Shown here: positions 5,341 through 30,729 of the stretch, piece by piece
Position numbering within the stretch: position 1 is the first letter of the stretch
Layout of the letters: each line of letters starts with the position of its first letter
From: Pseudomonadota bacterium
Lineage (GTDB): Bacteria > Pseudomonadota > Gammaproteobacteria > Burkholderiales > Burkholderiaceae_C
Direction of reading: 5' to 3'
Length of the DNA: 32,510 nucleotides
Assembly (NCBI GenBank): GCA_023460715.1
Contig: JAEWPH010000138.1
Coordinates: 1 to 32,510 of the forward strand
The notes under the pieces: model-generated
Told to the model about the DNA's origin: nothing
Databases searched by the model: none
What the model saw: only the letters and a program-made list of their open reading frames with translations
Made by a program: the position numbers and the translations under genes

Positions 5341-5463
5341 GGGGCTGGGGCTTTCGGGTGGGCCGCCGGGCCGGGCGCAACGCGTGTCTCCGGAGGCGGC
5401 GGCGGGCTCCTGCTGGCGGAGCCGCTCCCAAAGAACAGGCGATGCGGCGGGGCCGCACGGTGC

Positions 5464-5480
5464 GGGAGCGCTGCGCTCCC
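5464..5480. repeat. Perfect inverted repeat in ribBX upstream region
   Basis: GGGAGCGC-T-GCGCTCCC is a perfect 8-bp stem with a one-base centre. It lies 124 nt upstream of the ribBX start and has no T-run on either side, so it is not a canonical terminator. It could be an intergenic REP-like palindrome or an operator. The 348-nt interval 5341-5688 holds this palindrome, the inverted-repeat element at 5495-5658 and a 6-bp stem (CGCCCT..AGGGCG, 5654-5671). I see no gene in it and no recognisable FMN-riboswitch core. Confidence 0.5.
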
Positions 5481-5494
5481 AGCGGGCGATTCTA

Positions 5495-5658
5495 AGGCAA
5501 CGCTGAACAAACTCCTCTCGCGCTGCGCATCTCTGCTGGGGGCGGTCTGCCACGTTGCCAACCCCCGCCATCGCGGCGGCTGGTGCCTTGGTTCGCGCCT
5601 TGCAGCCACATCCCCCGGCAGGGCGCGCCGCTTCGCGGTGACTTGTTCAGCGCCGCCC
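5495..5658. mobile_element. MITE-like element with terminal inverted repeats
   Basis: An 18-bp imperfect inverted repeat bounds a ~164-bp non-coding segment. The left end is 5495-5512 and the right end is 5641-5658. They share a perfect 10-bp core CGCTGAACAA (5501-5510, complement at 5643-5652), and the 5 mismatches of 18 are all transitions. No coding frame fits inside and no clear target-site duplication is visible. Size, terminal repeats and position between two genes fit a miniature element mobilised in trans by an insertion sequence, but the parent IS is not in this window and I could not identify it. It separates the ferredoxin gene from ribBX. Confidence 0.5.
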
Positions 5659-5688
5659 TCAGCGCAGGGCGCCCCGGCTTGGACAACG

Positions 5689-5985
5689 TCAAATGCCGGG
5701 CGCTTCAAGCTGCAGGTCGCTGGTCGGGTAGGCCACGCAGGGCAGGATGCAGCCCTCGGCCTTTTCCTCGGCGGAGAGGCCGGGCCATTCGATCTCGTAG
5801 CGCACGCTGCCATGGGCCAGCACGCCGATGCAGGTGCGGCAGGTGCCGTTGCGGCACGAGCTGGGCCAGTCGATGCCGCCTTGCTCCAGCGAATGCAGCA
5901 GCGACTGCTCGGGCCAGGCATCGCATTGGGTGCCGTCGTCGCCCACGCGGGCGATGAAGAAAGGGGGCAGGGGAGCGTCGGCCAT
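5689..5985 (-). CDS. Small 2Fe-2S ferredoxin-like protein
   Basis: The protein has 98 residues with the plant-type [2Fe-2S] spacing C44-x4-C49-x2-C52 (SCRNGTCRTC) and the distal ligand C83 in CILPCVAYP; C79 is an extra nearby cysteine. It should be a soluble one-electron carrier, comparable to the isolated ferredoxin domains of oxygenase reductases. No reductase or oxygenase gene is adjacent, so its partner is unknown. The start at 5985 (MADAPLPPFF) was preferred over an upstream ATG because the extra 46 residues are read through the AT-rich double-hairpin repeat and look non-coding. The ribosome-binding site is weak. Confidence 0.88.
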   Translation of the reverse strand: MADAPLPPFFIARVGDDGTQCDAWPEQSLLHSLEQGGIDWPSSCRNGTCRTCIGVLAHGSVRYEIEWPGLSAEEKAEGCILPCVAYPTSDLQLEAPGI

Positions 5986-6015
5986 GGACAGTGCGAGGTG
6001 TTGAGGGTGTTTTAT

Positions 6016-6063
6016 GGCTCTGGCGCTTATGGGATAAGCGCATAAAGCTATAAATAGTATAGC
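6016..6063 (+). repeat. Double-hairpin dispersed repeat, copy A
   Basis: Two adjacent stem-loops are present: GCGCTTAT-ggg-ATAAGCGC (6023-6041, perfect 8-bp stem) and GCTATA-aatag-TATAGC (6047-6063, perfect 6-bp stem), preceded by GGCTCT. The same two hairpins recur at 15900-15953 (opposite orientation) and 21709-21762 (same orientation). It lies just upstream of the ferredoxin start. On the minus strand it includes TATACT, so it may also supply a -10-like sequence. Confidence 0.75.
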
Positions 6064-6105
6064 ATTTGATCGATCGGCTGGCCGTGCAGGCGCTGCCCGC
6101 TCGTC

Positions 6106-6219
6106 TGCCTCATTTTTCAGCACTCCAGCGGCTTGCCTTATGAATCAAGGGCTTGCGGCCGCCATACAGCGGTTGTCAAAACTTATCCACATGATTGTCC
6201 AGCGCCGGCAGGGATAACC
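6106..6219 (+). repeat. 114-bp direct repeat, copy 1, with DnaA-box sequence
   Basis: This is the first of three gap-free aligned copies (the others start at 6241 and 6457). Shared blocks are TGCYT at the left end, CCTT..AATCAAGG (6136-6150), CATACAGCG (6163-6171), the 9-mer TTATCCACA (6183-6191, a perfect match to the consensus DnaA box), GATTGTCCAGCG, and GGGATAACC at the right end. The right-end GGATAA is complementary to the TTATCC core. Base composition is clearly lower in GC than in the neighbouring genes. The interval 5986-6583 contains this array and repeat copy A and no conventional gene. Confidence 0.85.
6140..6217 (+). CDS. Possible 25-residue amphipathic peptide in repeat copy 1
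   Basis: An ATG at 6140 opens a 25-codon frame ending at the TAA inside the repeat's GGGATAACC block. The peptide contains AAAIQRLSKLIHMIVQRR, in which hydrophobic residues fall at positions 9, 10, 13, 16, 17, 20 and 21, a regular amphipathic-helix pattern with a strongly cationic polar face. There is no convincing ribosome-binding site. The same reading frame is open in copies 2 and 3. Substitutions between copies do not concentrate at third codon positions, and codons such as ATA, AAT and ATT are unusual for this genome, so coding is only a possibility. Confidence 0.15.
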   Translation: MNQGLAAAIQRLSKLIHMIVQRRQG

Positions 6220-6240
6220 AAGGCACGGCGCAGGCCAGGG

Positions 6241-6354
6241 TGCTTAAAAAAACAGCACTATCACCGGATCCCTTGCAAATCAAGGACTTGGAATCCCCAT
6301 ACAGCGCTTGTCCTCAGTTATCCACACGATTGTCCAGCGATCGCAGGGATAACC
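6241..6354 (+). repeat. 114-bp direct repeat, copy 2, with DnaA-box sequence
   Basis: This is the second copy, 135 bp after copy 1. It carries CCTTG-CAAAT-CAAGG (a perfect inverted repeat at 6271-6285), CATACAGCG (6298-6306), TTATCCACA (6318-6326) and GGGATAACC (6346-6354). GTTATCC (6317-6323) and GGATAAC form a perfect 7-bp inverted pair around GATTGTCCAGCG. The peptide frame of copies 1 and 3 is open here to the TAA at 6350-6352. However, the ATG and AAGGAGG of copy 3 are replaced by GGA and AAAACAG, so this copy probably cannot be translated. Confidence 0.85.
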
Positions 6355-6456
6355 GAGGCCTCGCCGCACCCTGAATGCCTTGCTGAGGCTCTGACGCCGC
6401 GTTCGATGCCGCCCGTTTCCGAGTGCGCAAGGGTGGTTGTTCGTCCCATGCCCGTT

Positions 6457-6570
6457 TGCCTAAAAAGGAGGCAATACGACGATGGGCCTTGCAAATCAAC
6501 GACTTGCCGTGGTCATACAGCGGTTGTTCAGGGTTATCCACACGATTGTCCAGCGGATGCGGGCATAACT
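6457..6570 (+). repeat. 114-bp direct repeat, copy 3, with DnaA-box sequence
   Basis: This is the third copy, 216 bp after copy 2. CCTTGCAAATCAACG is at 6487-6501, CATACAGCG at 6514-6522, TTATCCACA at 6534-6542, and the right end reads GGGCATAACT. It is the copy with the best expression signals: AAGGAGG at 6465-6471 and an ATG at 6482. The spacings 135 and 216 bp are not whole multiples of a helical turn. Confidence 0.85.
6482..6568 (+). CDS. Possible 28-residue amphipathic peptide in repeat copy 3
   Basis: A perfect Shine-Dalgarno sequence, AAGGAGG at 6465-6471, stands 10 nt before an ATG that opens a 28-codon frame ending in TAA. The peptide begins MGLANQRLAVVIQRLF and continues RVIHTIVQRMRA. 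It is a cationic amphipathic helix resembling in general form small membrane-active peptides of type I toxin systems such as TisB. Repetition of a short peptide-encoding unit recalls the Ibs/Sib repeats of E. coli, but no sequence relationship is claimed. The frame could instead be accidental in a DNA-binding-site repeat. Confidence 0.25.
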   Translation: MGLANQRLAVVIQRLFRVIHTIVQRMRA

Positions 6571-6583
6571 GCGCCGCCGCCGT

Positions 6584-6865
6584 TCAATCCTCGACCTTGA
6601 CGCCTTTCCAGAAGGCCACGCGGCCGCGGATGTGCTCGGCGTCGGGCTTGGGGTCCGCGTAGGTCCAGGCCGCGTCCGCGTTCAGCTCGCCGTTGACCAG
6701 CAGCGACAGGTAGGTGGCCTGGCCCTTCCAGGCGCAGGAGGTCTTGTGGTTGCTGAACGTGAAGTGCTCGCGCCGCAGCGAAGCCTCAGGAAAGTAATGG
6801 TTGCCTTCAACGAGCACGGTGTCGTCGCTCTCGGCCAGGGTAGCGCCGTTCCAGGTGGCTTTCAT
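6584..6865 (-). CDS. DUF427 domain protein
   Basis: A 93-residue cytoplasmic protein matches the DUF427 family throughout: MKATWNGATLAESDDTVLVEG, NHYFPEASL, TSCAWKGQATYLSL, and the C-terminal RVAFWKGVKVED. Members are small single-domain proteins whose biochemical role is not established. The start at 6865 is supported by AGGAG about 8 nt upstream, and the longer upstream frame shows no family features. It is transcribed away from the short-chain dehydrogenase gene, leaving a 244-nt divergent intergenic region in which I recognise no certain promoter. Confidence 0.9.
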   Translation of the reverse strand: MKATWNGATLAESDDTVLVEGNHYFPEASLRREHFTFSNHKTSCAWKGQATYLSLLVNGELNADAAWTYADPKPDAEHIRGRVAFWKGVKVED

Positions 6866-7109
6866 TGGAACTCCTTTCTGGGAGGTGGGGAGGGGATGGA
6901 TGCCGCCGCCCATCATGCCCGGTCTGGGTGGCGCAGGCGTGACCTGTGTGGCGGGGGCCGCGCCGGCCGTGCGTCGCGCAGGATGCTGCGCGACACCCTG
7001 CGGCTGCCGTACAGTGGCGCGCGGAGTGGCACGGCGGGCCGCGCAGCCACTGCGGGCCGATACACCGCCTCCACTTACATCACAAATCACAACCCAGGAG
7101 ATCCAAGAC

Positions 7110-8033
7110 ATGTCCCTCGACTTCCAAGGCCGCGTGGCCATCGTGACCGGCGCCGGTGGCGGGCTGGGCCGCCAGCATGCGCTGGCGCTCGCGGCCCGCG
7201 GCGCGAAGGTGCTCGTGAACGATCTGGGCGGCACGGTCGACGGCAGCGGCGGTTCGGTGTCCGCCGCACAGGCCGTGGTGGACGAGATCCGCGCGGCCGG
7301 TGGGCAGGCGCTGGCCAACGGCGCGTCGGTCACCGACTTCGCCGCCGTGCAGGCGATGGTGGCGCAGGCCGTCGATGCCTGGGGCCGCGTGGACATCCTG
7401 GTGAACAACGCCGGCATCCTGCGCGACAAGTCGTTCGCCAAGATGGACATGGACGACTTCCGGCTGGTCGTGGACGTGCACCTGATGGGCGCCGCGCACT
7501 GCTGCAAGGCGGTGTGGGCCCGCATGGTGGAGCAGAAGTACGGCCGCATCGTCATGACGACCTCGTCGACAGGTCTGTACGGCAACTTCGGCCAGGCCAA
7601 CTACGGCGCGGCCAAGCTGGCGCAGGTGGGCCTGATGCAGACGCTGGCCATCGAAGGCGCCAAGCACGGCATCCACGTGAACGCCCTCGCACCCACGGCC
7701 GCCACGCGCATGACGGAAGGCCTCATGCCCGAGGACGTGCTGGCTGCTCTCAAACCCGAAGCGGTGGTGCCCGCGATGCTGGTGCTGGCGCACGAGACCG
7801 CGCCGACGCGCACCATCCTGTGCGCCGGGGCGGGCACCTTCGAAGCCGCGCACATCACGCTGACGCAGGGGGTGCACATCGGCGCGGGCGACGACGCCCC
7901 CGAGCAACTGGCCGCCCGCCTGGGCGAGGTGGTGGACCGCGCGGGCGATACGGTGCCGGCCAGCGGAGCGGCGCAGGGCACGAACGAGGTGGGCAAGGCG
8001 CTCGCTGCCCGCACGCCGCGCGCTATACCGTAA
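7110..8033 (+). CDS. Short-chain dehydrogenase, MFE-2-like 3-hydroxyacyl-CoA dehydrogenase type
   Basis: This is a 307-residue Rossmann-fold SDR. The cofactor motif TGAGGGLG (13-20) and NNAG (99-102) are present, and the catalytic residues are S152, Y165 and K169 in TSSTGLYGNFGQANYGAAK. The segment VLVNDLGGTVDGSGGS after the second strand and the YGNFGQANY loop are typical of the dehydrogenase part of peroxisomal multifunctional enzyme type 2. The likely reaction is therefore NAD-dependent oxidation of a 3-hydroxyacyl-CoA. It has a C-terminal extension of about 55 residues beyond a minimal FabG-type SDR. AGGAG lies 9 nt before the ATG. No other beta-oxidation gene is adjacent. Confidence 0.9.
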   Translation: MSLDFQGRVAIVTGAGGGLGRQHALALAARGAKVLVNDLGGTVDGSGGSVSAAQAVVDEIRAAGGQALANGASVTDFAAVQAMVAQAVDAWGRVDILVNNAGILRDKSFAKMDMDDFRLVVDVHLMGAAHCCKAVWARMVEQKYGRIVMTTSSTGLYGNFGQANYGAAKLAQVGLMQTLAIEGAKHGIHVNALAPTAATRMTEGLMPEDVLAALKPEAVVPAMLVLAHETAPTRTILCAGAGTFEAAHITLTQGVHIGAGDDAPEQLAARLGEVVDRAGDTVPASGAAQGTNEVGKALAARTPRAIP

Positions 8034-30411: not shown

Positions 30412-30729
30412 TTAAATATCGTTTTCTGGCCTGTCCTTCAACTGTGCGGTGCGGGCATCAACGGCCTCGCGCAGGGCCTTGCCCGGCTTGAAATGGGGCA
30501 CCCGCTTTTCCGGGATGGCCACGGCCTCGCCGCTGCGGGGATTGCGGCCCATGCGGGGCGGCCGCCGGTTGACCGAAAAGCTGCCGAAGCCTCGGATCTC
30601 GATGCGGTGTCCGCGCACCAGGGCGTCGCCGACAGCGTCCAGGATGGTCTTGACGGCGTACTCGGCGTCGCGCTGCGTGAGCTGGCTAAAGCGCGCGGCC
30701 AGTTCTTCGACGAGGTCAGATCGGGTCAT
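30412..30729 (-). CDS. ihfB: Integration host factor beta subunit
   Basis: A 105-residue HU/IHF-family DNA-bending protein. [14 protein letters not shown] at the N-terminus and the beta-arm sequence [24 protein letters not shown] (intercalating proline P64) mark it as IHF-beta, which pairs with IHF-alpha. It follows rpsA, as in E. coli. No Shine-Dalgarno sequence precedes the ATG (the 12 nt before it are pyrimidine-rich), and the intrinsic terminator of rpsA ends only 22 nt upstream. Expression must therefore come from read-through, or from a promoter inside rpsA combined with incomplete termination. Confidence 0.96.

Follow-up and report, generated by a model that had tools for sequence, protein, structure and literature searches.

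A tandem array of putative DARS2-like DnaA-control modules beside a ferredoxin gene in Burkholderiales

Background

What is known about the reactivation of DnaA by DARS comes mostly from E. coli. According to the papers cited here, DARS1 and DARS2 share an oppositely facing box I and equal spacing, and the working step is the head-to-head contact of the DnaA molecules at boxes I and II. In the account of PMC4245941, DARS2 has an IHF site and then a Fis site beyond box III; its relevant passages give the Fis consensus as GnnYAnnnnnTRnnC and place the DARS2 core and Fis in gamma-proteobacteria related to E. coli. The passages of PMC5835720 on these elements put DARS1 and DARS2 in promoter regions and count 52 similarly arranged box pairs in E. 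coli, two of which became DARS. A review (PMC10380432) mentions DARS-like sequences in many proteobacteria, citing Fujimitsu 2009. Our literature queries found no paper on DARS in the group studied here (one query was very broad, and PMC10218098 contains both words).

This work concerns a cluster of DnaA boxes in a stretch of 32,510 nucleotides, which we call the window (contig JAEWPH010000138.1 of assembly GCA_023460715.1). We believe that the cluster consists of compact DARS2-like modules for DnaA control, set in tandem, a reading that we would put at a probability of roughly 0.6. Our claim is that the array would work like DARS2. We do not claim it as a proven member of DARS, because in the window boxes I and II and the Fis-like site agree poorly with the E. 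coli consensus, and because most of the similarly arranged box pairs in E. coli are not DARS.

The repeat units

Three 114-nt copies, starting at 6106, 6241 and 6457, align without gaps between the genes for a 2Fe-2S ferredoxin and a DUF427 protein. The other two copies are 67% and 70% identical to copy 2 (141 nt compared). The exact box TTATCCACA occurs at 6183, 6318 and 6534 and nowhere else in the window, while exact copies in 300 Markov windows of like composition average 0.027 per window and never number more than 2. A preliminary description of this DNA had reported three ungapped repeats with a perfect box in each, and the alignment confirms it. That description also saw a TTGTCC-type near-match after each box, which starts 12 nt past the box start in all three copies and which we recognize as the second box of a DARS-type core. 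The inverted core that it noted at the ends of copies 1 and 2 (GGGATAACC) is the third box of the same core; copy 3 has GGCATAACT. The IHF and Fis-like sites were not named there. Read directly from the DNA, the order within the 114 nt is a Fis-like site, an exact IHF site and then four DnaA-type boxes, numbered here as in the E. coli DARS cores apart from the additional weak box A.

5689..5991, minus strand: 2Fe-2S ferredoxin gene, conserved neighbour (Pfam Fer2; synteny); the array is upstream of it
6106..6219, plus strand: unit 1, 114 nt
6107..6121, plus strand: unit 1 Fis-like 15-mer, 2 mismatches to GnnYAnnnnnTRnnC (consensus as given in PMC4245941)
6143..6155, plus strand: unit 1 IHF site, exact WATCAANNNNTTR
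6173..6181, plus strand: unit 1 weak box A, TTGTCAAAA
6183..6191, plus strand: unit 1 box III, TTATCCACA
6195..6203, plus strand: unit 1 box II, TTGTCCAGC, 3 mismatches to TTWTNCACA
6209..6217, minus strand: unit 1 inverted box I, TTATCCCTG, 3 mismatches
6241..6354, plus strand: unit 2, 114 nt
6242..6256, plus strand: unit 2 Fis-like 15-mer, 2 mismatches
6278..6290, plus strand: unit 2 IHF site, exact
6308..6316, plus strand: unit 2 weak box A, TTGTCCTCA
6318..6326, plus strand: unit 2 box III, TTATCCACA
6330..6338, plus strand: unit 2 box II, TTGTCCAGC
6344..6352, minus strand: unit 2 inverted box I, TTATCCCTG
6457..6570, plus strand: unit 3, 114 nt
6458..6472, plus strand: unit 3 Fis-like 15-mer, 1 mismatch
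6494..6506, plus strand: unit 3 IHF site, exact
6524..6532, plus strand: unit 3 weak box A, TTGTTCAGG
6534..6542, plus strand: unit 3 box III, TTATCCACA
6546..6554, plus strand: unit 3 box II, TTGTCCAGC
6560..6568, minus strand: unit 3 inverted box I, TTATGCCCG, 2 mismatches
6584..6868, minus strand: DUF427 gene, neighbour on the other side (Pfam PF04248; synteny)

An AT-rich hairpin lies just upstream, as the preliminary description said, but it belongs to a separate family of dispersed repeats. This family has at least 23 further places in G001, the genome nearest to the window, and they match about positions 5999-6066 of the window alone (40 of 202 candidates scored). We leave the hairpin out of the array as a dispersed repeat.

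Conservation of the unit

Conservation was followed in 54 units, the window's three and 51 from relatives; the three near-identical copies of G001 had been dropped beforehand. Since these units were gathered with a profile of the window's own three copies, part of the agreement comes from how they were chosen, and it is with this limit that the exact TTATCCACA is found in 49 of 54, box II at gap 3 in 47 and the inverted box I at gap 17 in 49. The exact IHF consensus is present in 47 of the 54 units, including all three in the window, and the background rate of that consensus over 400 kb of G001 is 0.00000 per position to five decimals. The Fis consensus is exact in 20 of 54 units and in no unit of the window; all 54 retain the outermost G and C of this Fis-like site. 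Unit length is 114 nt in 53 units and 115 nt in one, the spacing between units is 135 bp in 17 of 33 intervals, and the sampled arrays of the window's group have 2-7 units each.

In alignment columns, the Fis-like 15-bp palindrome occupies 2-16, the IHF consensus 38-50, a CATACA motif 58-63, the weak box A 68-76, TTATCCACA 78-86, TTGTCCAGC 90-98 and the inverted TTATCCCTG 104-112. The mean share of the commonest base in a 32-row alignment is 0.99, 0.88 and 0.91 for the three core boxes and 0.89 for the IHF site, against 0.50-0.69 for the spacers. Conservation tracks the predicted binding sites. We consider it very likely, judging from the sequence, that the unit is a DnaA- and IHF-binding element under selection. 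The CATACA motif, which lies between the IHF site and box A (for example at 6163-6168 in the window), has a share of 0.90, equal in conservation to the IHF site.

Comparison with E. coli elements

We fetched the sequences of DARS2, DARS1, datA and oriC of E. coli K-12 and compared their geometry with that of the window units. The cores of DARS1 and DARS2 both consist of box I, 5 bp, an inverted box II, 3 bp and an inverted box III. Read on the opposite strand, the window units have the identical order, orientation and gaps (5 and 3 bp). By geometry score the three units rank first in the 32.5-kb window (5, 6 and 6; the next place scores 8), and a scan of the two strands over 400 kb of G001 has a single place with a score of 4 and nothing at 5-7. 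The same comparison finds the DARS geometry absent from datA and oriC of E. coli; the best score in datA is 6, and it is made by one strong and one weaker box. Box III of the window fits TTWTNCACA exactly and boxes I and II with 2-3 mismatches, where the E. coli DARS cores have 0-1. A model built from 32 units, R1, fails to detect DARS1 or DARS2 of E. coli even at E=1, so the likeness is one of geometry and not of overall sequence.

The preliminary description had named both datA and DARS as precedents for a cluster away from the origin. The part about a selected cluster is well supported, and between the two precedents we believe the box layout favours DARS. E. coli K-12 itself has a second place with DARS geometry beside the DARS2 core, upstream of mutH (L148:952), whose box I is TTATCCCAG, resembling the window's TTATCCCTG.

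Distribution among relatives

The region is 98% identical between the window and G001. In that genome the box pattern (at most 2 mismatches) and R1 each find this cluster alone. The outcome that would have counted against the preliminary description, dozens of randomly placed copies with badly kept boxes, is thus not what these searches show. Of 60 relatives searched at the nucleotide level, 21 gave matches, among them 16 of the 17 genomes of the window's genus. All 16 loci fetched from the genus have the ferredoxin gene and 14 have the DUF427 gene too. Among the best 80 of 556 ferredoxin relatives, units lie upstream of the ferredoxin gene at 42 named loci, and all 99 array hits at those loci have the same orientation. 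The other 38 of these 80 are without an upstream unit, a few of them having short upstream DNA; they include 8 cyanobacteria, Diaphorobacter nitroreducens and many Rhodoferax. The synteny with ferredoxin is shared across genera.

Counts of genomes with R1 are lower bounds, as 9-10 candidates were scored per genome. Matches were found in at least 196 of 399 genomes of the family, at least 49 of 399 of the order and at least 9 of 369 of the class; the seven of these outside the order are weak (E 1e-4 or worse). Many matches in other families extend only as far as the strong box. Among such diverged units, which come from about 40 genomes, 46 of 83 have an inverted box at gap 5, for the most part outside the region that R1 matched. 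Gap 17 is the next peak (13 of 83), and every other gap has at most 5. These figures come from 86 of 128 R1 hits, one of which has no recognisable box, and two of the 85 kept are cut off, leaving 83. Hits extending beyond model column 97, hits that stop well short of the strong box and duplicate listings were left out. An upstream box at gap 3 is present in 56 of 85, but it falls inside the span of the model and is weaker evidence for that reason. Two of the 46 loci in this set (L204 and L205) belong to the window's own genus. We read these results as two registers of one geometry, in which the strong box would be III in the window type and II in the wider type.

Runs of six R1 hits, some of them weak, occur in five genomes of one other family (L158, L159, L167, L183, L187). 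Genus g19 carries a second array, with up to four units, that is not beside the ferredoxin gene (L067, L122-L124); in three genomes its distance from dnaA is 0.16-0.31 of the half chromosome.

Chromosomal position and the DnaA machinery

The preliminary description held that the boxes stand far from dnaA, and their position bears this out. On 18 chromosome-scale contigs the ferredoxin-linked array lies at 0.59-0.91 of the distance from dnaA to the opposite pole (median 0.74). A further 23 places (E 1e-9 or better, with ferredoxin absent or unchecked nearby) range from 0.16 to 0.98. Sampled along G001, the GC skew has one change of sign around dnaA (1.43 Mb) and another between 3.51 and 3.72 Mb, and the array, at 3.92 Mb, is away from the origin-side switch; one stretch at 2.57 Mb has the contrary sign. 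We also considered a copy of oriC and rejected it. The dnaA regions of five genomes (seven stretches, L059-L065) hold at most one exact TTATCCACA each, so the oriC of these genomes was not recognised in them, and R1 has no match there up to E=1.

A second locus with DARS geometry lies upstream of priA (L084, L227, L217-L236). In G001, where PriA was identified, it is the place that scores 4 in the 400-kb scan, at about 1,888.9 kb and about 0.20 of the half chromosome from dnaA. All 17 genomes of the genus have a match to it, as do 23 of 40 relatives. The 20 loci examined have a box like ATATCAACA, a gap of 3 and then TTATCCACA; both of their strands carry IHF sites, and their geometry scores run from 4 to 8.

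Genes for Hda and for a Fis-family protein of 77 aa are present in G001, each above the NCBIfam cut-off. The gene adjoining fis there is presumably dusB. The window itself carries an IHF-beta gene above the NCBIfam cut-off (30412-30729), 24 kb from the array, and that the two share the window is probably coincidence. With these three genes present, a cycle of DnaA inactivation and reactivation is plausible.

Which explanation fits best

The array could simply titrate DnaA, its boxes soaking up the protein with the nucleotide state unchanged and IHF merely shaping the DNA. Several boxes per unit and 2-7 units per array are what such a sponge would have, but it leaves unexplained why one box is inverted and the gaps hold at 3 and 5 bp, and why an IHF site is conserved at a constant distance. 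In most cases, too, the array is far from dnaA, whereas the section of PMC12371093 on this point has the boxes gathered near the E. coli origin. We think titration unlikely. A datA-like element, in which a DnaA oligomer together with IHF would inactivate DnaA by promoting ATP hydrolysis, would share with datA, as the cited paper presents it, the combination of DnaA boxes and an IHF site. However, E. coli datA is without the inverted-box geometry, and a Fis-like site is a trait of DARS2 in the account of PMC4245941; we hold this alternative to be quite improbable. We give somewhat less credence still to a promoter of the ferredoxin gene controlled by DnaA and IHF. The upstream position and single orientation of the array at 42 of the 80 named loci (the best 80 of 556 relatives) would agree with it, as would the promoter setting of the E. 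coli elements according to PMC5835720, but the array stands anywhere between tens of bases and about 1.2 kb from the gene, and the same module occurs elsewhere without ferredoxin (for example L121-L124).

That the repeats have no function, being a relic, a coding repeat or a mobile element, seems to us very improbable. The three copies are in frame inside an ORF of 155 aa, which speaks for this reading. Against coding, stops interrupt every frame (in 10 to 32 of 32 units, depending on the frame), no three-base periodicity stands out, and the ORF has no Pfam match; we reject the coding repeat. An origin from a plasmid or phage is rejected as well, no match having been found in plasmid or phage collections (distant blastn, E 0.01). 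The preliminary description had raised a relic of a plasmid origin, which this result and the synteny common across genera do not support. Conservation that follows the binding sites also argues against a functionless repeat. A structured RNA was rejected too: Rfam on window positions 5400-7400 gave one match, below threshold and outside the array.

What separates DARS from datA, oriC and titration arrays is the head-to-head pair at fixed spacing, and for this reason we believe that no other single explanation fits as well as DARS-like reactivation. By analogy with E. coli, from which we take protein binding, ADP release and any effect on the timing of initiation, IHF, and probably Fis too, would put a bend in each unit and aid the assembly of DnaA on the three core boxes. 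The DnaA molecules on the oppositely facing boxes I and II would then make head-to-head contact and lose their ADP; departing as apo-DnaA, they would take up ATP. Since the locus is far from dnaA, the new copy of this supply of ATP-DnaA would arrive late in the replication round.

A broader idea is more doubtful than the reading of the array itself, and we offer it tentatively. Tandem DARS2-like arrays in Burkholderiales, through their copy number (2-7, and at least 6 in another family) and their late-replicating place, might form a tunable supply of ATP-DnaA, and the origin-proximal locus upstream of priA might be its partner, which would parallel the pair of DARS in E. coli. If our reading is true, a conserved, compact, multi-copy version in Burkholderiales would mean that the core geometry is old or has been repeatedly favoured. 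It would also provide a small modular DNA for studying how box spacing, IHF and Fis drive nucleotide exchange.

Comparison with known systems

The closest known system is DARS2, upstream of mutH. The likeness lies in the three-box core with equal orientation and gaps, and in the order of core, IHF site and Fis-like site. The window differs in having a compact 114-nt unit in tandem, beside a ferredoxin gene and with the extra box A. Its boxes I and II are weaker, and the IHF site is 27 bp from the core, compared with about 58 bp from box III to IBS1 in DARS2. DARS1, upstream of uvrB, has the same core geometry, and the strong box II of the wider register matches it. However, DARS1 has no need of IHF or Fis according to the paper cited for it, and the strong box of the window is III. 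The likeness to datA, as far as the cited paper describes it, is that of a DnaA-box cluster outside the origin with an IHF site. It differs from the window in being without the DARS geometry and, in the same account, in promoting ATP hydrolysis; in datA, boxes 2, 3 and 7 are arranged around a single IHF site.
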